Shown here: in pieces, positions 50,103 through 64,000 of the stretch
Layout of the letters: each line of letters starts with the position of its first letter
Numbering within the stretch: the first letter of the stretch is position 1
The notes under the pieces: generated by a model
The model's input: the letters and a program-made list of their open reading frames with translations, nothing else
Database searches by the model: none
What the model was told of the DNA's origin: nothing
Position numbers and translations under genes: made by a program
Assembly (NCBI RefSeq): GCF_005938645.2
Contig: NZ_CP042171.1
Coordinates: forward strand, 3,100,001-3,164,000
Direction of reading: 5' to 3'
DNA: 64,000 nt
Source of the DNA: Pedobacter sp. KBS0701
GTDB lineage: Bacteria > Bacteroidota > Bacteroidia > Sphingobacteriales > Sphingobacteriaceae

Positions 50103-52472
50103 TTATTGCATCAGCCTGTAATCTTCTTCTGCCTTTTTTACCTGGTCATAAATTGTGGGTTCGTGTTTTTTAATTTTAATTTTCACATATTTGGATGCGG
50201 GCATATTACTTTCCGCTACCACATTATTTACTGAAACCAACACATTGGTTTCGGGGAAATAAGTAACGGTATTCTTCTCCGGAATTTCGTAGGCAACAAT
50301 TACAAACAATGGTGCGATTCGTGTTATTCCATCATCATAATTAAACAGATCAACCTTATCCCCTGCTTTCAGTCCGAGTTTTTTGATGTCTTTTTGATTC
50401 ATAAAAATTACCCGCCGCTCATTTTTGATTCCCCTGTAGCGGTCATCCAACCCATAAATAGTCGTATTGAACTGATCATGCGTCCTGGTGGTCGCCATCA
50501 TAAACTCATCTTCCTCAAGATGATTGGCTGGAATTTCGGTCAGTGTAAAGGGAGCCCTGTTGCCAAATTTCTGGGTCAAGAATTTTCCTTCCCTTGCAGC
50601 GTTTGGCAAATAAAAGCCGCCTTTCCGTCTTACTTTAAAATTATAGTTTTCAAAGCCGGGTATGCACTGTGCTATCGCGTCACGAACCGCATCGTAACTA
50701 TCATGGTAAAGTGGCCAGTTCACAACCGATTTTTCTCCCAGTGTGGCCATCGCCATCCGGCATACAATCTGTGTTTCATTTATCAGGTTTTTAGATACGG
50801 CATCCAGCATTCCCTTAGAAGCCTGTACAACACCCATCGAATTTTCAGTAGATATGATCTGTACTTCACCATTCACGATGTCTTTGTCACTACGGCCATA
50901 CGTAGGCAAAATCAATGCTTCATTTCCATGAATTAAATGGCTGCGGTTAAGCTTGGTAGAAACACATACCAGCAGATCAAGTTTCCTTACTGCATTGGCG
51001 GTATATGTGGTATCAGGAGTTGCAGACAAAAAATTGCCACCCATGCAGAACAAAAATTTTACCTTACCGCCCTGCATTGCTTTTATTGTGCTTACCACAT
51101 CATAGCCATGCTCCCGCGGCATTTTAAATCCATAGAGTCCTTCCAAACGGTCTAATTGCTCATCAGTAGGTTTCTCATCAATCAGCATCGTCCGGTTTCC
51201 CTGTACATTACTGTGCCCCCGCACCGGGCAAACACCTGCGCCAGGTTTCCCGATGCTACCTTTAAGCAGCAGGATATTCACAATTTCCCTAATCATGGCC
51301 ACGCCGTTGGGTTGTTGTGTCAAACCCATTCCCCAACAGAAAATAATTCTGTTTTTAAATGCAATCATTTCGGCGGCTGTATATAAATCCTCCTTCGATA
51401 CGCCTGATAAACGGGCTAAATAATCGAGGTTGTAATCTTCCTGTTTAAATTGTTCTAAAAAAGCTTCATAACCGGTAGTCTTATCCTTTATAAACGCCTG
51501 ATCAAAAACTTTCCCCGGGTATTGTTTTTCAAACTCCATTAAAAGGATTTCCAGTGCCTTTAATAAGGCCATGTCGCCGTTAATCTTTACCGGAAGATAC
51601 AAATCAGCCAGCTTAACTCCTCCTCCAATCGTTCCTTTAATAGATTGAGGGTCCTGAAAGCCCATCAGGCCAGCTTCAGGCAGCGGGTTAATGGCAATAA
51701 TTTTGGCCCCATTTTTCTTCGCTTTTGCCAGTGCACTCATCATCCTCGGGGCGTTGGTTCCGGGATTATGGCCAATATCAATAATCAGATCCGTTTCATA
51801 AAAATCTTCAAGGGTTACTGTTCCTTTCCCTATACCAATAGTAGGCCTAAGTGCCGAACCTGAAGTTTCATGGCACATATTGGAGCAATCAGGCATATTG
51901 TTCGTCCCAAATTCTTTGGCAAAAAGCTGATAAACAAAAGAAGCTTCATTGCTTGTTCTGCCCGAAGTATAAAAGGCAGCCTCATGCGGAGATTGAAGCG
52001 CATTGAGGTGTGCAGCAATTTTCTTAAATGCATTCTCCCAGCTAATCGGTTCGTAATGTGTTCCGCCTTTTGGCATATACATCGGCTCAGTAAGTCTGCC
52101 AAATTTCCCAATCTGGTAATCATCCAGTTTAGCCAGCTCATATACCGAATGTTGTTTAAAAAAATCTGCGGTAACCCTTTTTGTAGTCGCTTCTTCCGCC
52201 AGGGCCTTGGCACCATTTTCACAATATTCGCCAACCGGCGACCGCTCATCATCAGGATCTGGCCAGGCGCAACTCGGACAATCGAAACCTTTAAACTGGT
52301 TCATGTTCAGCAGGGCCAGATTACCCCTGAAAAATGTTTTTTCTTCAATCAGATTTCCCATAGCGGCCATTACCGCATGCATACCTGCAGCCGATTGTGC
52401 TACCGTGCTAAGTTTAAGATCCAGCAGCTGGTATGGGTTTTCTGCTGAAGGTTTTTTTTCATTATTTTCCAT
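50103..52472 (-). CDS. FdhF/YdeP-family molybdopterin oxidoreductase
   Basis: This 789-residue molybdoenzyme has an N-terminal CPSCAWPDPD cluster motif near residue 66 and a YCENG segment near 83. It also has FYTSGRTSNEASFVYQLFAKEFG near 162 in broken form (YTSGRTSNEA), cofactor motifs such as IDIGHNPGTNAPR near 232 and GVCPVRGHSNVQGNRTM near 415, and a C-terminal MopB-type beta-barrel. It matches the YdeP branch of formate-dehydrogenase-like enzymes rather than true FdhF; the substrate is unknown. No Tat leader is visible. It lies 3 bp behind a DUF7009 gene and fdhD, one operon. Confidence 0.92.
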   Translation of the reverse strand: MENNEKKPSAENPYQLLDLKLSTVAQSAAGMHAVMAAMGNLIEEKTFFRGNLALLNMNQFKGFDCPSCAWPDPDDERSPVGEYCENGAKALAEEATTKRVTADFFKQHSVYELAKLDDYQIGKFGRLTEPMYMPKGGTHYEPISWENAFKKIAAHLNALQSPHEAAFYTSGRTSNEASFVYQLFAKEFGTNNMPDCSNMCHETSGSALRPTIGIGKGTVTLEDFYETDLIIDIGHNPGTNAPRMMSALAKAKKNGAKIIAINPLPEAGLMGFQDPQSIKGTIGGGVKLADLYLPVKINGDMALLKALEILLMEFEKQYPGKVFDQAFIKDKTTGYEAFLEQFKQEDYNLDYLARLSGVSKEDLYTAAEMIAFKNRIIFCWGMGLTQQPNGVAMIREIVNILLLKGSIGKPGAGVCPVRGHSNVQGNRTMLIDEKPTDEQLDRLEGLYGFKMPREHGYDVVSTIKAMQGGKVKFLFCMGGNFLSATPDTTYTANAVRKLDLLVCVSTKLNRSHLIHGNEALILPTYGRSDKDIVNGEVQIISTENSMGVVQASKGMLDAVSKNLINETQIVCRMAMATLGEKSVVNWPLYHDSYDAVRDAIAQCIPGFENYNFKVRRKGGFYLPNAAREGKFLTQKFGNRAPFTLTEIPANHLEEDEFMMATTRTHDQFNTTIYGLDDRYRGIKNERRVIFMNQKDIKKLGLKAGDKVDLFNYDDGITRIAPLFVIVAYEIPEKNTVTYFPETNVLVSVNNVVAESNMPASKYVKIKIKKHEPTIYDQVKKAEEDYRLMQ

Positions 52473-52475
52473 GGC

Positions 52476-52826
52476 TTAGCAATTGAGGTTGGGGTTCGGA
52501 AAATTGTCGCTCTGGTCTTCTGTCACGTTATCCAGGCAGGCAAAGTCTTTTTCTATAAGTAAGCTAACGGTACCTGAGGAGTCACTAAACCCAACTTTTT
52601 CGGTATTTACCAGTTCAGTTATCATTTCCAAAGGGATATTCAGCACAATTTTATTATTAGCAAAATCAGCGGTGAGTTTTTCCTCGCTTGTTCTTCTAAC
52701 AGCGTATTCCAGCGTATGGCTTGCAAAGTGGGTAAACTCAGAAAGAAACCCCAACATACCCAATGTGGTAACGTCTGATTTGCTTAAACGGTATCTGATT
52801 GAATTGCCTTTGATTCTAATTTTCAT
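52476..52826 (-). CDS. DUF7009-type small protein
   Basis: This 116-residue protein opens with MKIRIKGNSIRYRLSKSDV, typical of a family I associate with DUF7009. It ends in a Cys-containing tail with CLDNVTEDQSDNFPNPNLNC, where acidic residues and two Cys stand out. There is no signal peptide. Function is unknown. It overlaps fdhD by 11 bp and is 3 bp from the YdeP-type gene, so it probably serves maturation or regulation of that molybdoenzyme. The family name is from memory and less certain than the operon link. Confidence 0.7.
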   Translation of the reverse strand: MKIRIKGNSIRYRLSKSDVTTLGMLGFLSEFTHFASHTLEYAVRRTSEEKLTADFANNKIVLNIPLEMITELVNTEKVGFSDSSGTVSLLIEKDFACLDNVTEDQSDNFPNPNLNC

Positions 52827-53694
52827 GTGATATAGGGATTAATATGCGCGCATTTGTGGTATAAATATTGAACCTGTCTTCCCGAAGAAAGCCCAAAAGG
52901 GTTATTCCAAATTCCGAAGCCAGTTCTACAGCAAGGCTGGAGGGTGCACCAATGGCGGCCACAGTGGAAATACCTGCCATGGCCGCTTTTTGAATCAACT
53001 CAAAACTGGCCCTGCCGCTTAAAAGTAATATACGTTGGTTTAAAGGGAGCAGATCATTAGCCAGTGCTGCACCGATCAATTTATCTAAAGCATTATGTCG
53101 GCCAACATCCTCCCGGAGCAATAACAACTCGCCTTTCATCGTAAAAAGGCCTGATGCATGAATGCCCCCGGTTGCTGCAAAATTCTGTTGGGCAGCCCTG
53201 AGTTGGTCGGGCAGTTTATACAACACCTCCGGCAACAAAGTCATTTCCTGCTGATCAGCGTAATTCGAATAAGGGCTTACGGTTCTGATCGCTGCGATAG
53301 AGCCTTTGCCGCAAACCCCGCAGCTCGAGGTGGTGTAAAAGTTACGGTCAGCTTGTAAAAGATCAGGGATAAAACCTTCGTTTAATTCCACACCCACAAT
53401 ATTTTCCTTATTAAGTTCGCATGGCATGGCCAAATGGCTTATATTTTTCACCTGATCCTTGCCGGAGATAATGCCCTCAGTAAATAAAAAACCAAGTGCA
53501 AGCTCTAAATCCTGACCAGGGGTCCGCATGGTTACCGAGATGTTTTTTTGCACCCGGTTATTTTCCGAACCATATATCAGCCTGATTTCCAGGGGTTCTT
53601 CAACCGAAAGTACATCAAGCGCTGATGCGGTAATAACACCTGAAACTTTTCTCACAGGTATTTGCCTGATGGATAACGACGGGATATCTCTCAT
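52816..53694 (-). CDS. fdhD: Formate dehydrogenase accessory sulfurtransferase FdhD
   Basis: The 292-residue protein has the FdhD marks: the sulfur-transfer Cys in SSCGVCGKGSI near residues 122-132, AATGGIHASGLF near 172, REDVGRHNALDKLIGA near 195-210, and LSGRASFELIQKAAMAGI near 226-243. FdhD moves sulfur from a cysteine desulfurase to the molybdenum cofactor of formate-dehydrogenase-type enzymes and is needed for their activity. It is first in the operon with the DUF7009 protein and the YdeP-type enzyme, the likely client. Key residues are intact. Confidence 0.95.
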   Translation of the reverse strand: MRDIPSLSIRQIPVRKVSGVITASALDVLSVEEPLEIRLIYGSENNRVQKNISVTMRTPGQDLELALGFLFTEGIISGKDQVKNISHLAMPCELNKENIVGVELNEGFIPDLLQADRNFYTTSSCGVCGKGSIAAIRTVSPYSNYADQQEMTLLPEVLYKLPDQLRAAQQNFAATGGIHASGLFTMKGELLLLREDVGRHNALDKLIGAALANDLLPLNQRILLLSGRASFELIQKAAMAGISTVAAIGAPSSLAVELASEFGITLLGFLREDRFNIYTTNARILIPISHEN

Positions 53695-54505: not shown

Positions 54506-56788
54506 TTACTTTTTATTATTCGAACTGTCTTGTTCGATAAAATATTTTGCAAAATAGGCCCGCATGCGTTTTTCAAAATACAGTTTTGCAGGCCCCTCGT
54601 AATGGTGATCCTGCCCCGGCAGCACCATGAGGTCAAAATCTTTATCGGCCTTGATGAGCGCATCGACCATCCGGTAAGTATTTGCCGGATTTACATTTTC
54701 ATCCACTTCGCCGGTTACCAGCATTAAATGGCCTTTCAGATTTTTGGCCAGATCTTCATTGATAGGCATTTTCTTTTCCAGCCCTTGGTAAGTTTCGCCC
54801 CAGGTGCGACTATATATCCTATTGTCGTGATTACCTGATGAGGCAACCCCGACTTTATAAAAATCAGGATATTTACACATGGCTGCAACGGTCATCATAC
54901 CTCCGCCCGAATGGCCGAAGATTCCGACTTTGTTCATATCCATAAAGGGATGTTGTTTGGCCAGTTGCTCCAGTGCATATTGATCATCCTCGATAGCGTA
55001 ATCGCGAAGATTACCATAACCATATTTATAATAGCCGGCATTGCGGATGGGCGAACCTCCCCTATGCCCAACGGCCACCACGATGAATCCCATCTGCGCC
55101 AAAGCAGCATTATTATATTTATCCAGCACAGTAAAATCGTTCCAAACGGTTTCAATCTGCGGCCCCGGGTAAACCTGCGAGATGACCGGATATTTTTTAG
55201 CCGGATCAAAATCGAAAGGCTTCCAGATTAATCCATACAGATCGGTTATGCCATCTTTAGCTTTTACGGTGAAAGATTCTGCATTTTTCCAGCCATAGCC
55301 ATAGAGGTTACTTACATTTGGCTTTAATACTTCAGAAATGGTTTTACCGTCAATTCTACGCAGCACGGTTACTGGCGCCAGATCGATACGGGAATAGTTA
55401 TCTACAAAATACTTCCTATCCGGCGAAACTGCAACCTGGTGGGTCGCATTTTCAGGGGTAAGCAACTGTTCGTTTTTACCGTTTAAAGCCTCCTTGTACA
55501 ATAGGGCATAATAGGGATTAATGTTGCGCTGCTTGCCATAACCGTAGAGGTAAAGATTGCCCTTGGCGGTATCGATAGCCATGATTTTTCCGGCTGTAAA
55601 ATTGCCCTGGGTAATGCGGTTGAGCAAATGGCCCTCGCCGTCGTAACGGTAGTATTGGCCCCAACCCGTTCGGTCACTCCACCAGATAATTTCCTTTCCA
55701 CCTTTTATAATAGAAACATTAAAAAAATCTTCGTTAATAAAGGGCTTGCTGATTTCATGAATAATGGAGCGGACTTTTCCGGTAGCGAGGTCTACTGCAC
55801 AAAGTTCCATTTCATCCCTGCTGCGCTTTCGTCTGATCACAAAAACTTCCTTTGTATTGCCCTGGGCTTCGCATACTTCCAACTGCTGATCCGGCCAGCG
55901 TTTCAGGTCTGCCTTTTTAAAAGAACCGTTTCCGGCATCGCCAATATAAAGTTCATACTGTGCTACATCCTTATCGCCCGGCAATTCATATTTATAGGTA
56001 GATATCCGGGGTCTTGGCGTTATCGCCGAGCTGATTACAGATAGGGTAGCTACTTTCCTGGTATCTACACGTAATGCATAAAAATAGTTGGCACCTAACC
56101 ATTTTGCATTAGAAGGATAACTTTTATCTGTAGTGTATGTGCCCTTTTCATCTACACAAAATGAGAAATAAGGTTCAGCATCAAAACTCAACTGAAGTTC
56201 ATTTTTCTTATCGGAGGTTGCAGCGAGGTACAAATTATGTGCTTTGCTGTAAAGCGCCCATTTGCCATCTGCAGAAACACCAAAACCGGCTATTTTTTTT
56301 AGTGGTGCTTTGTTAAGCTGTAAGGTTAGTTTTTTGGTTTCGTAGTTATAGTCATAAGTTTTTGTGCCATATTTTATGAGAACCGTTTTTTCATCTTCCG
56401 AAAAATTAGCCCAATAAATCACTTCTTTTTCTTCCACCATTTGCCCGGTGAATGCTTTTAATTGCTTCCGTATTTCAGGTTTATCAAACAAGGCCTGCTT
56501 TTTTCCTGTAGCTAAATTTACAATGTAGTGCGTATTCTTTTTGCCGGGAGCGACAAGAGAATCGCCAGACAAATACGGTTGTTTACCATTTAAAGCAGGC
56601 TCATCGGCCACAAACCAAAAATACCTGCCATTTTTAAGAAAGAATGGAATCACCTTAGTGGTACCAATCAGCTTACTTAAATTGGGCGCATCAAATTTTT
56701 GCGCAGCTTTATAATTAGCCTGCTGTGCAACTGCCGCTGCACTGCAAACCAACCATAAGAAAATTAAACTAATTGGCTTTTTGTGCAT
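54506..56788 (-). CDS. S9-family peptidase (dipeptidyl-peptidase IV-like)
   Basis: The 760-residue exported peptidase has a signal peptide (cut after VAQ near 22), an N-terminal eight-bladed propeller and a C-terminal alpha/beta hydrolase domain. The triad is visible: Ser in GHSGGGMM near residue 624, Asp in VTGEVDENV near 700, and His in GQDHHYEG near 733. S9B enzymes remove dipeptides from peptides after Pro or Ala; specificity is unknown here. It is the last gene of a six-gene or longer operon of exported proteases and a SusD lipoprotein, and overlaps the thioredoxin-fold gene by 20 bp. Confidence 0.92.
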   Translation of the reverse strand: MHKKPISLIFLWLVCSAAAVAQQANYKAAQKFDAPNLSKLIGTTKVIPFFLKNGRYFWFVADEPALNGKQPYLSGDSLVAPGKKNTHYIVNLATGKKQALFDKPEIRKQLKAFTGQMVEEKEVIYWANFSEDEKTVLIKYGTKTYDYNYETKKLTLQLNKAPLKKIAGFGVSADGKWALYSKAHNLYLAATSDKKNELQLSFDAEPYFSFCVDEKGTYTTDKSYPSNAKWLGANYFYALRVDTRKVATLSVISSAITPRPRISTYKYELPGDKDVAQYELYIGDAGNGSFKKADLKRWPDQQLEVCEAQGNTKEVFVIRRKRSRDEMELCAVDLATGKVRSIIHEISKPFINEDFFNVSIIKGGKEIIWWSDRTGWGQYYRYDGEGHLLNRITQGNFTAGKIMAIDTAKGNLYLYGYGKQRNINPYYALLYKEALNGKNEQLLTPENATHQVAVSPDRKYFVDNYSRIDLAPVTVLRRIDGKTISEVLKPNVSNLYGYGWKNAESFTVKAKDGITDLYGLIWKPFDFDPAKKYPVISQVYPGPQIETVWNDFTVLDKYNNAALAQMGFIVVAVGHRGGSPIRNAGYYKYGYGNLRDYAIEDDQYALEQLAKQHPFMDMNKVGIFGHSGGGMMTVAAMCKYPDFYKVGVASSGNHDNRIYSRTWGETYQGLEKKMPINEDLAKNLKGHLMLVTGEVDENVNPANTYRMVDALIKADKDFDLMVLPGQDHHYEGPAKLYFEKRMRAYFAKYFIEQDSSNNKK

Positions 56789-57896
56789 ATCTCTCTTTCA
56801 TGGACTTAAATAAACTTACTAAATAAGGATTACTTGAAGTTCTGGTGATTTCATCTGAAAGCTCGGCTATCTTTGGAAATGTATAACCTTTAGTACTTTT
56901 GGCAAACGTAACATAGTCAAATAAGATATGACGGTTGTCTTCAGAGAAAGAACCTAAATTTTTCAGAAACAAATTGGTAACTTCATCAATGTTTTTCTCT
57001 CCCGCGGCAATGGCAATATCCATCATCACCAACAATTGTTTTTTATCGGGCATTTCGGTATTGCGAATTTGCGCTTTATAGCGTTCGTAATCATTTTTAT
57101 TGAAAGGTTTTACTTTAACATAAAAACCATTTAAAGTCCACGATGCAATTTGTCTGTATACCGAAGAAAGCTTTTGATCAACAGTATCTTTGGTGTTTTT
57201 GCCAACAAAATCTCTCCAATGTGTGGCCAGGTATTCGAAGTTAGGGCTTGAGAAATCAGAAAGGTACATGGTGTAGCGGTTTTGACCAAACAGGAACCAG
57301 TTTTCGGGACTGGCTTTTTGCTGGGGTGTTAAACTGGCCATCAGCTCGTCATTCAATTCTTTTGCTCTTGATTTTTCCATCACCTTAATTTTATGCCTGA
57401 TGTATGCTCTCATCAGCTCTGGTGTGCGCTCTCCACTTTCGTAACGGGCGTTTAAATTAGCTTCGTCATTGTTGGCCGTTAATCCTTTATTTGCATTGGC
57501 TATGAAATCTTTCGCAGACATGCCGCCCACAAATTTATTCTTTGTTTTTCCTTCAGTATCTAAAATGAGGTAGGATGGATAAGCCTCAATGGTATACATT
57601 TTTTTAACCGATGGGCCCTCTCCCTTTTCCATATCTACTTTGATGTTGATGAAGTTTTCATTATAAAAATCGGCAACACTGTCCTGGGTAAATATATTGG
57701 CCTCCATTTGCTTGCATGGAATACACCAGGTGGTAAAACAATCTACAAAAACCGATTTATTTTCACTTTTGGCCTTCGCCAAAGCTTCTTTGAGGTTTAG
57801 CTTTTCAAAATGGATTTCTTTTTTCTGGGCGCTTACAGCCAGGCTTAAAAAAAGCATGGTTACTGCAACACTAATTCTTCTCATATTATCTGGCAT
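56769..57896 (-). CDS. Exported thioredoxin-fold protein
   Basis: This 375-residue protein (or 371 from the ATG at 57884) has a signal peptide (RRISVAVTMLFLSLAVSAQ). The thioredoxin domain (about 25-150) has WCIPCKQME near residue 57 and the cis-Pro in AYPSYLIL near 105. The C-terminal half is helical and of unknown fold. It probably reduces or isomerises disulfides in the periplasm. It overlaps the preceding degenerate metalloprotease gene by 11 bp and the S9 peptidase by 20 bp, so it may help unfold disulfide-containing proteins for the proteases; this is inference. Confidence 0.88.
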   Translation of the reverse strand: MPDNMRRISVAVTMLFLSLAVSAQKKEIHFEKLNLKEALAKAKSENKSVFVDCFTTWCIPCKQMEANIFTQDSVADFYNENFINIKVDMEKGEGPSVKKMYTIEAYPSYLILDTEGKTKNKFVGGMSAKDFIANANKGLTANNDEANLNARYESGERTPELMRAYIRHKIKVMEKSRAKELNDELMASLTPQQKASPENWFLFGQNRYTMYLSDFSSPNFEYLATHWRDFVGKNTKDTVDQKLSSVYRQIASWTLNGFYVKVKPFNKNDYERYKAQIRNTEMPDKKQLLVMMDIAIAAGEKNIDEVTNLFLKNLGSFSEDNRHILFDYVTFAKSTKGYTFPKIAELSDEITRTSSNPYLVSLFKSMKERYAQKAN

Positions 57897-60225
57897 TAGG
57901 TTCGTTATTCATTAACATCTTCATTAATTGAAAATGCTCCTTTGTTAAAGCATCATTATGGGTATTGGCCACCTGGTTAATGTGTTTACTTAAAGAAATA
58001 CGGTAAGCATTTAAAACAATACCGATATCGCTTAAACCAGCATCGATTTTGTTTTTTGAAATTAAAGTCAGCAGGTTTTTGAGGTAGTTATATTGAATAT
58101 TGCGCTGATAAGTGCTTAATGCAGTATTCGGGTTAAAATCTAAAAAGATATAATGATCGACCTGACTAAACAAGTCTTTCGTACCAAAAACATTTTTTTC
58201 TCCAGAATTTTCAGCTTCCAGAAGATTACTAAGCAAATCGGCAGTGGTAAGGTAATTGATAATTTTATTTGAAGTTTTTGAAACCAGTGTTTCGGTATTG
58301 GAGCCATCCATGGATTGTGCCCTGTCGTTTCTTGTCCATGCCGGCACTTCTTTTAACACATTTTGATATAAAAATTCGAAGGTGGCCAATTGCCTTGCCT
58401 TTGGCACATAAACGGCTGGTATACTGTTGTAACCCTTCATCACCACAAAACGTTGTTTACCCCCAATATTAGGTAAAACACTGGTGGCATACTGATCATA
58501 GGACATGATGAAATTGGCAGCAAGCAACATATAAGTCCCCCAGGTATCATCATTCATTTTGGACGCAATACCTTCCAGTTTCGGGTAAAAAGCTTTCAGG
58601 CGGTTAATGCCAATTTGCGCGGCTTCGATATTTTGCGATGATAAATCATTGGCCTGTGCATAAGGGTTGTTTTTATCTTCTGCCGAGTAGTAAAGTGCCG
58701 GATTTATCTTACCATCCTTTAAAAAGGTGGCTCCGTTGATCCCATCCTGAAACTGACGATAAGCCCAGTTGATCGCCAAATGATCATAAGCACCTAGCTG
58801 TGGTAAAAACAGTTTGCTATTGAATGCTTTTGATACAGGCGTCATCAAATAGTTAAACTCTAAATTATCGGTAATTGAGGAAGTAAATCCATGTTGCGCT
58901 ACCCACTTTGGATCGCTTACCTGCTGCACATTATATGCAGTACTCGCAGCGTAATTAGGAAGCATTCCTAAAACTTCAGCCATGGCCTGGCTAACTTTAA
59001 ATTTCAGAATATCCTGACGTACAGCTGGCGAAGAAGCATCCTTCTGGATACGTGGATCGTAAGCCCCGCATTGAACGAAATACTTTTGAAGCAGATCATC
59101 AATCATTAAATCACTAAGTGTTACTTTAGCTGTTTTTATTTCTGCTGTGCGTGGGTCTTCTACCAGATCTACAACTGCTTTTGGGGTTACCCCTGCCCAG
59201 GCTATTAATACGCTACCTTCTTCCATGGCCACCGGTTTACCGTTTTCAGGTAAAATAACCTTTATCGCGTTTTTAAATCCGGCACTTTCAAAACACTTAT
59301 TCCAGGCCAAAACCCCATCTTTAACGGCATTGATAAAAAACTGCGGTACTGATGAGTGCAAATAAACCATTATAGGTTGCTGAGGCTCTACCAGATTACC
59401 CGCTTTATAACGGGCAGCGTCTTGTGGTTTTACCAGTAAGTTCCACTTTTTTATGATAGTAACTTTTTTTGCTGCATAACCGGCTAACCCAAAATCAGTA
59501 AACTGGCGGGTATCAAACCCGATACGTTTGTCGGCTGGTTTGATGGGCATCTGCGCTTCTGAAAGCTGCTGTAGCAACAGACCAAATTGCATGGTATTGG
59601 GCTGGTCTAAGGTTTTGCCATTATAATCACGTCCGGCATTGTTCTGGGTTCTGAGCACATTAAAAAAAACACCGTTTTTAACCGCTTCAACCTGTTCAAC
59701 ACCCGATCTGCCCGGATCTGGATTGGCCATAAGATTGTAGTTTTTGAAAGAAAAAAGTTCACCTCCTTCAATCAGTTGTCTGGTGATATCAATAATCACA
59801 CTACCGGTATCTTTACCTAGAGCTTCTATTTTAAATGTAAAGCTAATGGGTTCGAGGATTGAGCCACTCAACAGGTTAGACATGGGTGCGTTATTCACAG
59901 CCTGTTCGCTATAATTATTTCTGGTTACATACAGGTTTTCTCCCTGGCCTTTCACAAACCTGAGGATACCTGATGATTTTGAGACAGCGGAAGAACCGAA
60001 ACGAATATCTCCGGCTACCAGAATATCTTTATTCAATTGGTTTGGCCCAATCTGCAGGTAATATTTTTCATCCGCCTGGTAAACGGGAAATGTACCCGCT
60101 ACCACCTGCTTTTTATCTTTGATAAATTTCTCGAAATCTAGTGAAGTACTTTGTTTTGGTTGCTGGGCTACCACTGTAAAAGTAATGGCCAAAGCCAGCA
60201 ATACCATTGTTAATATTTTTTTCAT
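57886..60225 (-). CDS. DUF5117-type metalloprotease homologue lacking the zinc site
   Basis: The protein has 779 residues from the ATG at 60225 (60234 also possible), with a signal peptide (MKKILTMVLLALAITFTVVAQ in broken form). It is a full-length paralogue of the next gene upstream, with shared landmarks such as the VEDPRT/IDPRS segment and the NLEFNYLM/YLRFNYVV segment. Where the paralogue has HEVGHTLGLRH, this one reads QAMAEVLGMLP (residues 413-423). All three zinc histidines and the catalytic Glu are gone. It is probably a non-proteolytic partner, for example substrate-binding or regulatory. The rest of the protein is intact, so it is not a decaying pseudogene. Confidence 0.87.
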   Translation of the reverse strand: MKKILTMVLLALAITFTVVAQQPKQSTSLDFEKFIKDKKQVVAGTFPVYQADEKYYLQIGPNQLNKDILVAGDIRFGSSAVSKSSGILRFVKGQGENLYVTRNNYSEQAVNNAPMSNLLSGSILEPISFTFKIEALGKDTGSVIIDITRQLIEGGELFSFKNYNLMANPDPGRSGVEQVEAVKNGVFFNVLRTQNNAGRDYNGKTLDQPNTMQFGLLLQQLSEAQMPIKPADKRIGFDTRQFTDFGLAGYAAKKVTIIKKWNLLVKPQDAARYKAGNLVEPQQPIMVYLHSSVPQFFINAVKDGVLAWNKCFESAGFKNAIKVILPENGKPVAMEEGSVLIAWAGVTPKAVVDLVEDPRTAEIKTAKVTLSDLMIDDLLQKYFVQCGAYDPRIQKDASSPAVRQDILKFKVSQAMAEVLGMLPNYAASTAYNVQQVSDPKWVAQHGFTSSITDNLEFNYLMTPVSKAFNSKLFLPQLGAYDHLAINWAYRQFQDGINGATFLKDGKINPALYYSAEDKNNPYAQANDLSSQNIEAAQIGINRLKAFYPKLEGIASKMNDDTWGTYMLLAANFIMSYDQYATSVLPNIGGKQRFVVMKGYNSIPAVYVPKARQLATFEFLYQNVLKEVPAWTRNDRAQSMDGSNTETLVSKTSNKIINYLTTADLLSNLLEAENSGEKNVFGTKDLFSQVDHYIFLDFNPNTALSTYQRNIQYNYLKNLLTLISKNKIDAGLSDIGIVLNAYRISLSKHINQVANTHNDALTKEHFQLMKMLMNNEPNAR

Positions 60226-60324
60226 CCGTATCATTCTGCTTTTTAATGAAGATGAAGCCACCATCATGATCAATTTTTTTTTAAATCATTGACGCTCCAT
60301 CTGTTTATTTATATTGGCACTGTA

Positions 60325-62784
60325 CTAACTTGCAGGTTTGCTCTCCTGCCATTGCTTTATCAATTCTGAAATGGCCCTCAAATGATCTTTTGACAGGTAA
60401 TCGGTTTTGAGCTGTTGAGCGGCATCACAGGCTTTTTTAATTTTATCCAGTTGCAGTTTCATCAAAATAGCTTCATTATTTCCAAAACTTGCCGGGTTAT
60501 ATACCGAACCTAAAAGTTTGTTAATGTAATTCCGCTGCAACATTCTACGGTAATCGGAAATAGGTGCTGCCAAGCCCACATCGCCAAAAATGCCCTGATA
60601 TAAGTCATCAAAAAACTCGTTAAGCGTATAAGGGTTTTGTCCTGTAATACGTTCGTTCTTCGAGATGGCAGAAAACTTGTAAAAAACTTTTCCTAAAAAG
60701 GCTTCATAATCAGCCTGTACTTCACCATCAAATACAAATCTTGTTTTATCGGTTATATTTTTGGGAAACAACCAGGTAGGTTCCTGAAAGTAATATGTAT
60801 TGATAAAAGCCATAGCCTCTTTTTGCGTGGCACGGCCTACCGGCACGAAATTAGGTTTATCTTCTACCTTAAGCGCCTGATCGCCATACCTACCGCCAAT
60901 ATTTTTGACTACATGTGACAGGTATTCATTGTAACGGCTTGCAACAGAAGCGTGCATCCTTCTCATCATGCTGTAATTTTCGTCATCATCCTTCTCCAGC
61001 CAATCTTCCATATTATTCATGATGTATTTAAGATTTTTAATGCCTAAAGCACCGGCTTGCATGGCATTACTGCCCATATCTTCTGATTGTACGCGAGGAT
61101 CGGAAAAATCTCCTTCGGGGAAATAAAACAAACGTACATCTTTACGTTTCTCTGTCACCCAGTTTTTCAGAAATTCACCTTCTTTATAAGCATTGTTAGG
61201 TTCAGGAAAATATTTGTATCCCCATTCAATCGCAAATTCATCATAAACACCAATTTTAGGATGAAGTTCTTCAGCGGTAAAACCATCTTCTGGCTGTACT
61301 ACATAGTTAAATCTCAGGTAATCCATAATGGAAGCTCCAAAACCATTTTTGGCCACATAATCGCGTTTACGCACACTGTCTACATTGTAACTATGGCTCC
61401 CTGCAAAATCATGGCGAAGGCCTAAGGTATGGCCCACTTCGTGCGTGATTACGGTTTGTAACATACGCCCCATGATATCTTTTGCCAATGGAAGCTTACG
61501 ACCTCTCTGATCGATTGCAGAACACATCACAAAGTACCAGCGCTGCATTAAATCGGTAATGTTATGGAAAACGGCCACGTGCGAACTCAGAATTTGACCA
61601 GAGCGCGGATCAATCACCATCGGTCCGTAAGCATTTGCAGTAGTAGAGGGTTTATAAGAAATTACAGAATAATTAATGTTATCCATCGAAAAATCAGGAT
61701 CTTCTGCTGTGGTAGGTGCCATTTTAGCCACAATGGCATTTTTAAATCCTATTTTTTCAAAAACCTTTTGCCAGGCATCTACACCGGCAATAAAATATGG
61801 CTGTAAATATTCAGGTGTGTTCCTGTCTACATAAAAAACAATGGGTTTTGCAGGTTCAACCAGCTCACCACGCTTGTATTTTTCCACATCCTGTGGTTTA
61901 GGCTCTATTTTCCAACGGGTTGCCAAGCCACGCTCTTCCAGTTTAAGCGGATTGCTCGAATAATCATTCAATCCACGCGCAAAATAACCTACCCTTTTAT
62001 CAGCAAAACGCTGGCGCATAGGTATGGCCGGTAGCAGATACCAGCTTGCACCTACTTCCCATGCCGTTGGCCCGTTTTGGGGAACGCCCGGGTTTTCCTG
62101 TGGTTGCTGAGGTTCAACCGGTGCATCGCCCGAATTGGGCTTTTGGGTTAGCGCCCCCGGTAAATAATTACGCAATGAACGGAATACCAGGTTATTTTTA
62201 TAAACGGAGATGCCAGTTAATTTTGATAAGCCCGCCTGGTAAGGCCCCAGGCCTAATTCTTCTTTTGCACCACTTAACGATAAGATGGGCATGTCTGCAT
62301 TAATAGCCGGCGTAATATCAATCATCACCGCATCTGCATCTTTAGCAACCGGTGCAAAAGACATGATAATCGGCGTTGGCCTGGAGGTAATAGTATTATA
62401 AAAAATGCTGTTGGTTCTAGGTGCGTTATAAAACTGTGACTGTTCCATATTGATTGCACCTTTTTTATTCCTGTTAAATTTAAAGACGGCTTCGTGCACC
62501 ACGTCTCCTGCAAAGCCAAAACGCTTTCTCGAATCTCTGGCTACCTGTGCCGAACCTCTATTGATGACAATCATGGCCAGAATATCCCTGTTTAACAACG
62601 AATCCTTCAGTTCGAGGAAATACTTATCATTCTGCTGATAAATATTGAAAACACCTTTATACGAAATCGCATTCTGTTTTAGAAATGTGCTGATAGCCGG
62701 TGGCGATTGCGCTTCCTTTTGCGCCATTAAACTGGTGCTTAGGCAAAGATTACCCAGCAGCAACAACTTTTTTAATAGTTTCAT
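60325..62784 (-). CDS. DUF5117/DUF4953-type zinc-dependent metalloprotease, active copy
   Basis: The 819-residue exported protein has a signal peptide (MKLLKKLLLLGNLCLSTSLM, then AQ) and an N-terminal DUF5118/DUF5117 region. The metallopeptidase core has the extended zinc motif HEVGHTLGLRHD (His 448, Glu 449, His 452, His 458), followed by a DUF4953-like C-terminal part with IMDYLRFNYV as the likely Met-turn. This is a metzincin-like arrangement. It is probably periplasmic or surface-bound and breaks down proteins. It lies 71 bp behind an Mx1-type lipoprotein and 99 bp ahead of its inactive paralogue. Confidence 0.9.
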   Translation of the reverse strand: MKLLKKLLLLGNLCLSTSLMAQKEAQSPPAISTFLKQNAISYKGVFNIYQQNDKYFLELKDSLLNRDILAMIVINRGSAQVARDSRKRFGFAGDVVHEAVFKFNRNKKGAINMEQSQFYNAPRTNSIFYNTITSRPTPIIMSFAPVAKDADAVMIDITPAINADMPILSLSGAKEELGLGPYQAGLSKLTGISVYKNNLVFRSLRNYLPGALTQKPNSGDAPVEPQQPQENPGVPQNGPTAWEVGASWYLLPAIPMRQRFADKRVGYFARGLNDYSSNPLKLEERGLATRWKIEPKPQDVEKYKRGELVEPAKPIVFYVDRNTPEYLQPYFIAGVDAWQKVFEKIGFKNAIVAKMAPTTAEDPDFSMDNINYSVISYKPSTTANAYGPMVIDPRSGQILSSHVAVFHNITDLMQRWYFVMCSAIDQRGRKLPLAKDIMGRMLQTVITHEVGHTLGLRHDFAGSHSYNVDSVRKRDYVAKNGFGASIMDYLRFNYVVQPEDGFTAEELHPKIGVYDEFAIEWGYKYFPEPNNAYKEGEFLKNWVTEKRKDVRLFYFPEGDFSDPRVQSEDMGSNAMQAGALGIKNLKYIMNNMEDWLEKDDDENYSMMRRMHASVASRYNEYLSHVVKNIGGRYGDQALKVEDKPNFVPVGRATQKEAMAFINTYYFQEPTWLFPKNITDKTRFVFDGEVQADYEAFLGKVFYKFSAISKNERITGQNPYTLNEFFDDLYQGIFGDVGLAAPISDYRRMLQRNYINKLLGSVYNPASFGNNEAILMKLQLDKIKKACDAAQQLKTDYLSKDHLRAISELIKQWQESKPAS

Positions 62785-62855
62785 TCATTTTTGTTAAAAG
62801 CACTGCTTGTTATTTTTTTACAAACAGTGCTTAATTGATAATAGAGTTGGTTAGC

Positions 62856-63797
62856 CTAGAGGCCCCTGGTTGCATTTCCGATCACTTGAAGATCGACACC
62901 ATATTCATTGATAAAATAGTTTCTAACAATGTTATATCTCCTTTTTATCTGGCCTGCAGTATCTTTTGTAGCATTAAGCATTCCAGCTGGCGTGCTGTCT
63001 GTATTTGCTACAGACGCGTTTAACTGCGGGGTAGAATAAGTAACCATTGCAGTGATATAGGCGTTCCAATCCAGCTGGGCAGAAATGTTTGAAGTGCCCA
63101 TGATTATCCCCCTGCTATATGCCTGTGAGAGGGAACTTACATTGCTCATATAATCAGCACTACTGGCAAAGTCTGAAGATGGTGCAGATAATCCCCTGGC
63201 AAAAATGCTTTGCATGAAGATGAGATTCACCTTATAAATAAAGGCGCGCTGTTCAGCGGCAGTCATGGTGCTTACAGTTGCATCCCCATAATTCACCTGA
63301 ATGTTATCGTAATTGTAAAAAGCAGCTACTTTTTTCGTTCCTTTCGAAGCAGTAATTATTGGCGTAAAAATATAAGTGGTAAAAACAGAATCAACCTTTT
63401 TACAAAGCATGATCTTTACCGGGAGAAACTGTTTGAGAAATTTATCTGTGTAAAAATCAAACCATTTACTTTTGATCAGCGCGAGCTGAGGTGCCACGTA
63501 TGCCGGGTCGGATGGTTCCACTTCTGCACCAGGAGACCATGCCCCGTTTGTTGACACCGGTTTTTTCCAGCCGGTTGGCGTCCAATACACATCCTTTTCA
63601 GAGAATTTGTATAACATATATGTGCCGTAAGCATTATAATAGTTTACTATTGTCTGATCAAATGCATTATTTCCCTGAGGAACTTTATAAGTATCATCTA
63701 TACCAGAGGGTATAAGTTGCTCATCTTCTTTTTTACAAGAGGCGATCGAAATTGCCAGCATTAGGGCAAATAAGATCAAAAAATTCTGTTTCATCAT
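62856..63797 (-). CDS. Mx1-type SusD-associated lipoprotein without a recognisable zinc site
   Basis: The 313-residue lipoprotein has a leader with Cys in ISIASCKKED near residue 21. It matches the substrate-import-associated zinc metallohydrolase lipoprotein group by its length, its place right after a SusD gene and its conserved DDTYKVPQG and YGVDLQVI ends. Family members usually carry HExxH near residue 195. Here the aligned stretch reads MQSIF (residues 195-199), with no HExxH anywhere. It is probably a surface lipoprotein of the SusCD-type complex that binds rather than cuts. Confidence 0.75.
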   Translation of the reverse strand: MMKQNFLILFALMLAISIASCKKEDEQLIPSGIDDTYKVPQGNNAFDQTIVNYYNAYGTYMLYKFSEKDVYWTPTGWKKPVSTNGAWSPGAEVEPSDPAYVAPQLALIKSKWFDFYTDKFLKQFLPVKIMLCKKVDSVFTTYIFTPIITASKGTKKVAAFYNYDNIQVNYGDATVSTMTAAEQRAFIYKVNLIFMQSIFARGLSAPSSDFASSADYMSNVSSLSQAYSRGIIMGTSNISAQLDWNAYITAMVTYSTPQLNASVANTDSTPAGMLNATKDTAGQIKRRYNIVRNYFINEYGVDLQVIGNATRGL

Positions 63798-63820
63798 TTT
63801 TTTATTTTGGTAAATGATTG

Positions 63821-64000
63821 CTATTTCGGGTTTTGAGAAAGATCAGGATTATTATTCAAGGCGTTAAATGGAATCGGGAGGGCATAAAGTGAACTGTTTG
63901 CAGGCAGCGTATAAACAGTGGATACGCCATCAGCGCCGGTAAAATTATGCGTCACCGGAATGGCCCATCGTCTGATATCCTGCCATCTGGAGTTATTCTC
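63821..64000 (-). CDS. SusD/RagB-family outer-membrane lipoprotein, C-terminal end
   Basis: The last 59 residues are present; the rest lies beyond the right edge. The visible part has the SusD C-terminal pattern SRWQDIRRWAIP and the ending YALPIPFNALNNNP. SusD proteins sit over a SusC-type TonB channel and capture glycans or peptides. The genes that follow in the same direction encode peptidases, so a peptide or protein ligand is likely. The stop is 23 bp from the Mx1 lipoprotein start. Confidence 0.9.
   Translation of the reverse strand, partial: ENNSRWQDIRRWAIPVTHNFTGADGVSTVYTLPANSSLYALPIPFNALNNNPDLSQNPK

Follow-up and report, generated by a model that had tools for sequence, protein, structure and literature searches.

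SusC/SusD (SusCD) pairs that bind peptides are represented by RagAB of Porphyromonas gingivalis and BT2261-64 of Bacteroides thetaiotaomicron, which take oligopeptides into a closed cavity (PMC7782687, PMC11992087; these and the other papers cited are used here through excerpts of their text). In B. thetaiotaomicron, the mucin O-glycoprotein locus BT4240-50 (M60L) joins a SusCD operon to a binding lipoprotein and a peptidase, and its authors leave open, in the excerpted text, what digests the imported peptide; the uncharacterised BT3013 locus (SusD, predicted M60-like BT3015) likewise combines SusCD and a peptidase with no carbohydrate-active enzymes (PMC11992087). In the mitochondrial processing peptidase (MPP), a live subunit is accompanied by a homologous dead one that is essential (PMC11266112). 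Here we compare with these systems an operon of Pedobacter sp. KBS0701 that runs across the right end of the window, by which we mean the whole 64,000-nucleotide stretch analysed (contig NZ_CP042171.1, positions 3,100,001 to 3,164,000). It encodes SusC and SusD, an Mx1-like lipoprotein, a live and a dead met-zincin homologue, a thioredoxin-fold protein and an S9 peptidase, together with a FecI/FecR pair. Its best overall explanation, to which we give a probability of roughly 0.66, is that it would be a substrate-induced SusCD operon for the uptake and digestion of peptides, probably disulfide-bonded, whose uptake unit acts as a chassis that different lineages fit with different protease cassettes.

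The differences from the described systems are considerable. RagAB and BT2261-64 are described as transporters, whereas the present operon also encodes a reductant, an endoprotease pair, an S9 peptidase and a sigma/anti-sigma pair. BT4240-50 has a surface M60L lipoprotein and glycosidases, and the excerpts of PMC11992087 mention no thioredoxin for it and neither a dead/live pair nor a thioredoxin for BT3013. MPP belongs to an unrelated family with an HxxEH motif, and its heteromer has been shown, whereas the one proposed here is deduced from the genes. Bacterial M16B hetero-subunit peptidases, said to be of the HxxEH family, reportedly also combine live and dead subunits. In the open-access literature subset searched, DUF5117 and DUF4953 were named in no paper, no description of such a chassis or of met-zincin pairs of this type was found, and the excerpts of PMC10434189 and PMC7881567 held nothing bearing on the operon. 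An initial account of the window made from its sequence (the preliminary description) had called such a locus not well described, and this stands, although peptide-importing SusCD pairs are known. What is known would thus be peptide binding by SusCD and the live/dead principle from MPP, and what appears new is the chassis with its swapped proteases and the live/dead pairs of met-zincins.

Layout of the operon

Families were assigned by Pfam and NCBIfam profile scans of the locus proteins. Positions are those of the window, and genes to the right of 64000 are given in extended window coordinates; the host genome is complete (6.33 Mb). In order of transcription, the genes are as follows.

70586-71167, FecI (TIGR02985, 136.3 bits)
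69110-70270, FecR (PF04773)
65331-68951, SusC with STN, carboxypeptidase-regulatory and plug domains (TIGR04056, 618.9 bits against a cut-off of 368.25; STN PF07660, 42.1 bits)
63821-65329, minus strand, SusD, a RagB/SusD family lipoprotein with lipobox LGSC, of which only the last 180 bases (63821-64000) lie within the window (PF14322, 91.4 bits; PF07980, 64.7 bits)
62856-63797, minus strand, Mx1-like lipoprotein without HExxH, lipobox IASC (PF15890, 27.0 bits)
60325-62784, minus strand, live met-zincin DUF5118-DUF5117-DUF4953 with HEVGHTLGLRH (PF16313, 320.2 bits)
57886-60273, minus strand, probable ATG start at 60225, dead met-zincin homologue DUF5118-DUF5117-DUF4953 without zinc site (PF16313, 170.2 bits)
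56769-57896, minus strand, thioredoxin-fold protein (Thioredox_DsbH/Thioredoxin_7) with WCIPC, about 230 extra C-terminal residues and a plain signal peptide (PF03190, 53.4 bits)
54506-56788, minus strand, S9 family peptidase resembling dipeptidyl peptidase IV (DPPIV_N and Peptidase_S9), plain signal peptide, no lipobox (PF00326, 113.8 bits; PF00930, 99.1 bits)

All six window genes lie on the minus strand and overlap or stand less than 100 bases apart. The intergenic distances are 1 base between SusC and SusD, 23 between SusD and the Mx1-like gene, 71 from there to the live met-zincin, 51 between the two met-zincins (99 counted from the ATG), and then overlaps of 11 (dead met-zincin and thioredoxin) and 20 bases (thioredoxin and S9). 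Coordinates and profile matches thus confirm the named families in one direction with short gaps or overlaps, as first described, and the SusC gene and regulator sought beyond the right end are present there as SusC, FecR and FecI. SusC adjoins SusD, as expected of a SusCD nutrient-uptake locus, and the extracytoplasmic function sigma/anti-sigma pair together with the STN domain of SusC places the locus in the sigma-controlled subtype. None of the nine genes from FecI to S9 encodes a carbohydrate-active enzyme, all nine products being assigned to other families, and the operon therefore does not qualify as a polysaccharide utilisation locus. As judged from its genes, the FecI-to-S9 set forms an entire SusCD operon with substrate sensing and no carbohydrate enzyme; we treat it as a candidate for, and not as a member of, the peptide-importing SusCDs of the RagAB and BT2263-64 type, which are defined by peptide bound in the SusCD cavity. 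In SusC, the STN domain (residues 68-119) precedes the carboxypeptidase-regulatory domain (139-221), the opposite of the order in the excerpted text of PMC7782687, according to which the carboxypeptidase-regulatory domain comes first in all cases.

Live and dead peptidase homologues

The two met-zincins differ at the zinc site. The live copy carries HEVGHTLGLRH followed by a later conserved methionine, as expected of a met-zincin, while the dead one reads QAMAEVLGMLP in place of HExxHxxGxxH, so that an active and an inactive DUF5117 protease do stand side by side, as the preliminary description held. The dead copy, by its motif, is a DUF4953 met-zincin homologue and not a peptidase. Among the matches listed, 59 met-zincins were aligned, three short pieces being left out (one in L006, cut by the region end, and two of one broken gene in L008); 44 keep HExxHxxGxxH and 15 do not, and in all 15 dead copies the first zinc-site histidine is replaced by Q, R or K. 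The methionine of the SIMDY motif (M487), probably the Met-turn, is invariant in 44/44 live copies. A further met-zincin of the host genome is broken into two frames with its zinc site still readable (G000:C1:1196603-1198092; L008:6315-7948).

Tandem pairs are uniform in composition. Among the matches listed, from which the dead copies were initially picked, 17 pairs were collected (15 at first, to which those of L131 and L133 were added), and every one consists of one live and one dead member, with none live/live and none dead/dead. The first 15 all lie in SusC operons, with a thioredoxin in 13 of them; of the operons that hold only one met-zincin, 3 of 29 include a thioredoxin. When 51 genomes at the level of the family Sphingobacteriaceae were surveyed, 43 had met-zincins, amounting to 80 genes after split rows were joined. 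The profile search gave 79 readable frames, a weak hit in G012 being left unclassified: 72 with an intact motif (among them one fragment of the broken host-genome copy and fragments at contig edges), 6 dead and 1 without a readable motif. Six of 12 tandem members were dead, each adjoining a live copy, against 0 of 66 readable singletons (Fisher 3.6e-6). Across the phylum, met-zincins were hit in 27 of 61 genomes, while tandem pairs, judged by coordinates, appeared in the host genome alone, and we thus make no claim for the phylum as a whole.

Both members of the window pair are, from their substitution pattern, under purifying selection. Compared with P. suwonensis, the ratio of non-synonymous to synonymous substitution (dN/dS, with values at saturated dS discarded) is 0.06-0.07 for the dead and 0.04-0.07 for the live copy. 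This and its conservation rule out that the dead copy is a decaying pseudogene. AlphaFold2 gave confident models for the dead copy (predicted local distance difference test 84.8, predicted template-modelling score 0.84) and the live copy (87.3 and 0.86); searched against the PDB, neither model matched a fold at E 1e-3 or better, so that no known fold could be named, and a PDB sequence search with the live met-zincin gave no match.

We examined the origin of the dead copies in trees built without the motif columns. The 59-row tree requires 5 changes between live and dead, all forced by well supported branches; a 49-row tree, which left out 14 loci (near-duplicates and surplus singletons, including the L018 pair nearly identical to that of L017), requires 6, of which 5 are forced. 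Placing all dead copies in one clade cost 768 log-likelihood units and was rejected by the approximately unbiased test (p-AU 1e-5). L020 has a live first gene and a dead second one, and L022 the reverse, yet their first genes are sisters and their second genes are sisters, and joining the two dead ones was again rejected (p-AU 9.6e-66); different members thus lost catalysis after one duplication. Both topology tests were chosen after the tree had been seen. Regain of the zinc site is compatible with the counts but implausible.

The Mx1-like lipoprotein appears to be a second dead peptidase. Its Pfam score of 27.0 bits exceeds the cut-off (25.6), but with NCBIfam TIGR04549 (substrate import-associated zinc metallohydrolase lipoprotein) it reaches only 26.4 bits where 75 are required. 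HExxH is missing in 6/6 close relatives aligned and at 28/28 Mx1-like loci, whereas the second Mx1 of the host genome retains HEFQH. By profile score and motif it is a distant relative of TIGR04549 and not a member, and it is probably a surface substrate-binding pseudopeptidase. The earlier designation as an Mx1-type lipoprotein therefore stands as regards the Pfam match and lipobox, but not as regards TIGR04549 or catalysis. A PDB sequence search with this protein gave no match. Its relatives are confined in range, with 28 hits in 22 of 301 genomes of the family and, at class level, hits in 1 of 247 genomes, that one being the host.

Shared uptake unit, exchanged proteases and surroundings

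The order SusC-SusD-Mx1-live-dead-thioredoxin-S9 was found in seven genomes, namely the host, P. suwonensis, Pedobacter sp. AK013, G111, G061, G284 and G346 (loci L005, L013, L014, L129, L130, L131 and L133, of which L129 and L130 come from the same genomes as L012 and L011). The arrangement is thus not due to chance, and the conservation of gene order that the preliminary description had proposed to check holds. We then mapped all 28 Mx1-like loci, taking as the operon a same-strand run with gaps up to 250 bases and assigning peptidase classes by Pfam on representatives and by phmmer to these for the remaining loci. SusC and SusD precede the Mx1-like gene in all 28, and a thioredoxin-fold gene and a peptidase are each present in 27, but the peptidase varies. 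The live/dead met-zincin pair with S9 accounts for 7 loci, S9 with a single live met-zincin for 2 (L132, L153), S8 with an aspartyl protease for 12 (L134-L144, L150; some of these also have S41 and another thioredoxin), S41 for 3 (L145, L146, L149) and M1 for 3 (L147, L151, L152), while one (L148) has none. At L145:1-1725, one frame joins a Peptidase_S41 and a TlpA-like thioredoxin domain beside SusC-SusD-Mx1.

As a control, the same mapping was applied to 20 SusC loci of the host genome, taken from its list of 56 as every third row plus the final one. In sharp contrast to the Mx1-like loci, only two contain a thioredoxin and two a peptidase (M16 in L170 beside a thioredoxin, S9 in L171; one was found by seed and two after Pfam), and at least six carry glycoside hydrolases (L158, L159, L160, L165, L168, L172). 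The thioredoxin difference, 27/28 against 2/20, gives a Fisher p of 4.6e-10 with shared ancestry ignored. The host operon L170:6780-17617 fits the same plan, FecI-FecR-SusC-SusD-thioredoxin-M16, and the M16 family has active and inactive domains in one chain.

Sequence identities indicate that parts of the operon move separately. Between the window and G061, SusC, SusD and Mx1 are 87, 92 and 91% identical, the met-zincins 50 and 38%, and thioredoxin and S9 74 and 81%. The reverse is seen with P. suwonensis, where SusC, SusD and Mx1 share 66, 54 and 55% and the remaining genes 93, 92, 92 and 89%; the dead met-zincin, 92% identical there, is 68% identical in Pedobacter sp. AK013. Over the seven loci, pairwise identities correlate at 0.92-0.96 within SusC/SusD/Mx1, at 0.99 between the live and dead met-zincins and at 0.91 between thioredoxin and S9. 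SusD correlates with either met-zincin at about 0.25, and the pair is therefore replaced as a unit. Of the 17 pairs among the matches listed, 10 fall outside the Mx1 lineage. Four of these (L049, L021, L020, L022), scanned with Pfam, have DUF4843 and PKD_2 lipoprotein-type genes between SusCD and the pair, with thioredoxin-fold proteins after the pair in L049 and L021, while L015 consists of SusC, SusD and the pair only. In this second SusCD lineage, the pair and thioredoxin thus recur with unrelated binding proteins.

The predicted location of the proteins bears on the cargo. SusD and the Mx1-like protein have lipoboxes, whereas the two met-zincins, the thioredoxin-fold protein and the S9 peptidase begin with plain signal peptides that end in AQ and lack a lipobox, so that reduction and cleavage are probably periplasmic and follow import. 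In the thioredoxin-fold protein C58, C61 and P107, the presumed cis-proline, are invariant in 8/8 aligned proteins, and the host genome has three DsbD_TM matches, two of them within frames of 556 and 572 residues, which makes an electron source for a periplasmic reductant plausible. The S9 peptidase has the propeller and S9 domains of the dipeptidyl peptidase IV type, and S627, D696 and H728, assigned from motifs as its Ser-Asp-His triad, are invariant in 6/6 aligned orthologues. A total size limit of about 5 kDa has been suggested for SusCD transporters (excerpted text of PMC7782687). Since the operon encodes no surface endoprotease, this limit makes peptides or very small proteins a likelier cargo than whole proteins.

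Several observations concern the surroundings of these genes. Sites of the sigma-70 type were fewer than in shuffled sequence, and the TTTG/TAnnTTTG pattern of Bacteroidota-type promoters gave one match per locus against 1.6 expected, with none upstream of FecI; we make no promoter claim. Terminators showed no excess over expectation (15 against 13.3; 2 against 3.3). A strong G+C-rich hairpin between FecR and SusC (L006:7056-7083) could attenuate or punctuate transcription. Upstream of FecI lies a defence-type cluster (L006:14604-20000, about 76600-82000 in extended window coordinates) with a type I methyltransferase (PADLOC, 639.9 bits), a ThsB-like TIR protein (182.1 bits), a weak match to AbiH and a protein similar to the C-terminal portion of HEC-06/Orf5. 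Past the 3' end of the operon, on the same strand (50103-53694), are what appear, from translations judged by eye, to be a molybdopterin oxidoreductase and a protein of FdhD type, with no apparent relation to the operon.

Proposed function, alternatives and meaning

That the locus serves the acquisition of peptides or proteins is very probable. In the proposed mechanism, SusD and the dead Mx1-like lipoprotein, both with lipoboxes, would bind peptide at the surface. SusC would import it by way of TonB, as is usual for its family, and its STN domain would signal occupancy to FecR and FecI, raising expression of the operon. Once in the periplasm, the peptide would have its disulfides opened by the CxxC thioredoxin-fold protein, which a DsbD-type protein would supply with electrons, and the live met-zincin would cut the opened chain. 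The dead paralogue would be its obligate partner, binding or positioning the substrate or completing the cleft as in MPP; such a physical pairing agrees with the retention of the pair, its purifying selection, its exchange as a unit and its convergent evolution. The S9 peptidase would finally release dipeptides, a specificity suggested by its family and triad. The preliminary description had proposed a protein-utilisation locus working by surface capture, disulfide opening, endoproteolysis and dipeptide release. The lack of carbohydrate enzymes and the presence of unrelated peptidase classes and of a thioredoxin, each in 27/28 loci against 2/20 controls, agree with this and capture remains the first step, but the cargo is likelier peptides than whole proteins, and disulfide opening and proteolysis probably come after import. 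A protease/pseudoprotease heteromer is the favoured mechanism for the pair, and we think it somewhat likelier than otherwise that the live and dead met-zincins form one that works; genetic linkage and co-inheritance suggest an MPP-like heteromeric protease.

Several points weigh against this explanation. The tandem-pair operons L015 and L020 have no thioredoxin, and live singletons without a dead partner exist, L153 and L132 retaining SusC-SusD-Mx1-thioredoxin-S9 with one met-zincin. Because the 28 loci and the 17 pairs are related by descent, the counts overstate independence, and the long branches of L049 and L015 make the number of independent losses less certain. Part of the search for control peptidases used seeds from the test loci, and Pfam was run on 3 proteins assigned by seed and on 20 of the 52 left without assignment. 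Signal-peptide types were judged by eye and a crude pattern, and a type IX secretion tail had no match in Pfam or NCBIfam, the profile sets through which alone it was sought. The singletons would also suit a reading of the same peptide-uptake operon in which the dead met-zincin acts on its own, as a substrate-binding protein or a chaperone, or inhibits its live neighbour, and pseudometallopeptidases with scaffolding and regulatory roles are known (PMC11266112, excerpted text). Yet the dead copy always stands in tandem with a live one, was lost reciprocally in L020 and L022 and is exchanged as a unit with its partner, which fits a direct partner better than a binding protein acting freely, and we regard this reading as unlikely.

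The alternatives that change the role of the whole operon are less probable still. Thioredoxin and proteases would also suit the removal of antimicrobial peptides or bacteriocins, which are often disulfide-bonded, and defence genes lie upstream, although these are anti-phage in type. However, a TonB-dependent importer with its own sensor pair has the design of an acquisition system, importing a membrane-active peptide would be a poor defence, and a dipeptidyl-peptidase-like S9 as the last step, judged by family, suits nutrition; a peptide-defence operon is thus improbable. FecI and FecR resemble iron regulators by name and TonB transport of iron compounds is common, as would fit piracy of a siderophore, haem or metal peptide with proteases freeing the cargo. 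This is more improbable again, because FecI/FecR also stand beside other SusC genes of the host genome (for example L158 with GH9), and because the protease class changes while the uptake unit stays, pointing to a polypeptide as cargo. Least probable is a glycoprotein locus with the glycan as the prize, for which the M60L mucin locus of B. thetaiotaomicron sets a precedent of SusCD with a protease (PMC11992087, excerpted text); here no glycoside hydrolase is found among the operon genes, the FecI-to-S9 proteins all being of other families.

Taken with the explanation of the operon as a peptide-uptake system, these data lead to a joint claim that we hold at even odds. Bacteroidota, here one family, would possess true loci for protein or peptide utilisation built on a chassis of FecIR-SusC-SusD-dead Mx1-thioredoxin with at least five catalytic protease types swapped, and a SusC-linked met-zincin heteromer would have arisen on at least five independent occasions, through tandem duplications after which one or the other member lost its zinc site. 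The pseudoprotease part is the surprising element of the locus. If true, the met-zincin heteromer would be a bacterial counterpart to MPP in an unrelated family, DUF5117/DUF4953, for which searches by sequence and by fold turned up no solved relative. Recurrent live/dead pairs, including two homologous pairs with opposite losses, offer a natural experiment on why pseudoenzymes are kept. SusC proteins are habitually annotated as glycan importers, and the signature of a dead Mx1, a thioredoxin and a protease would allow peptide-specific loci to be called from sequence.

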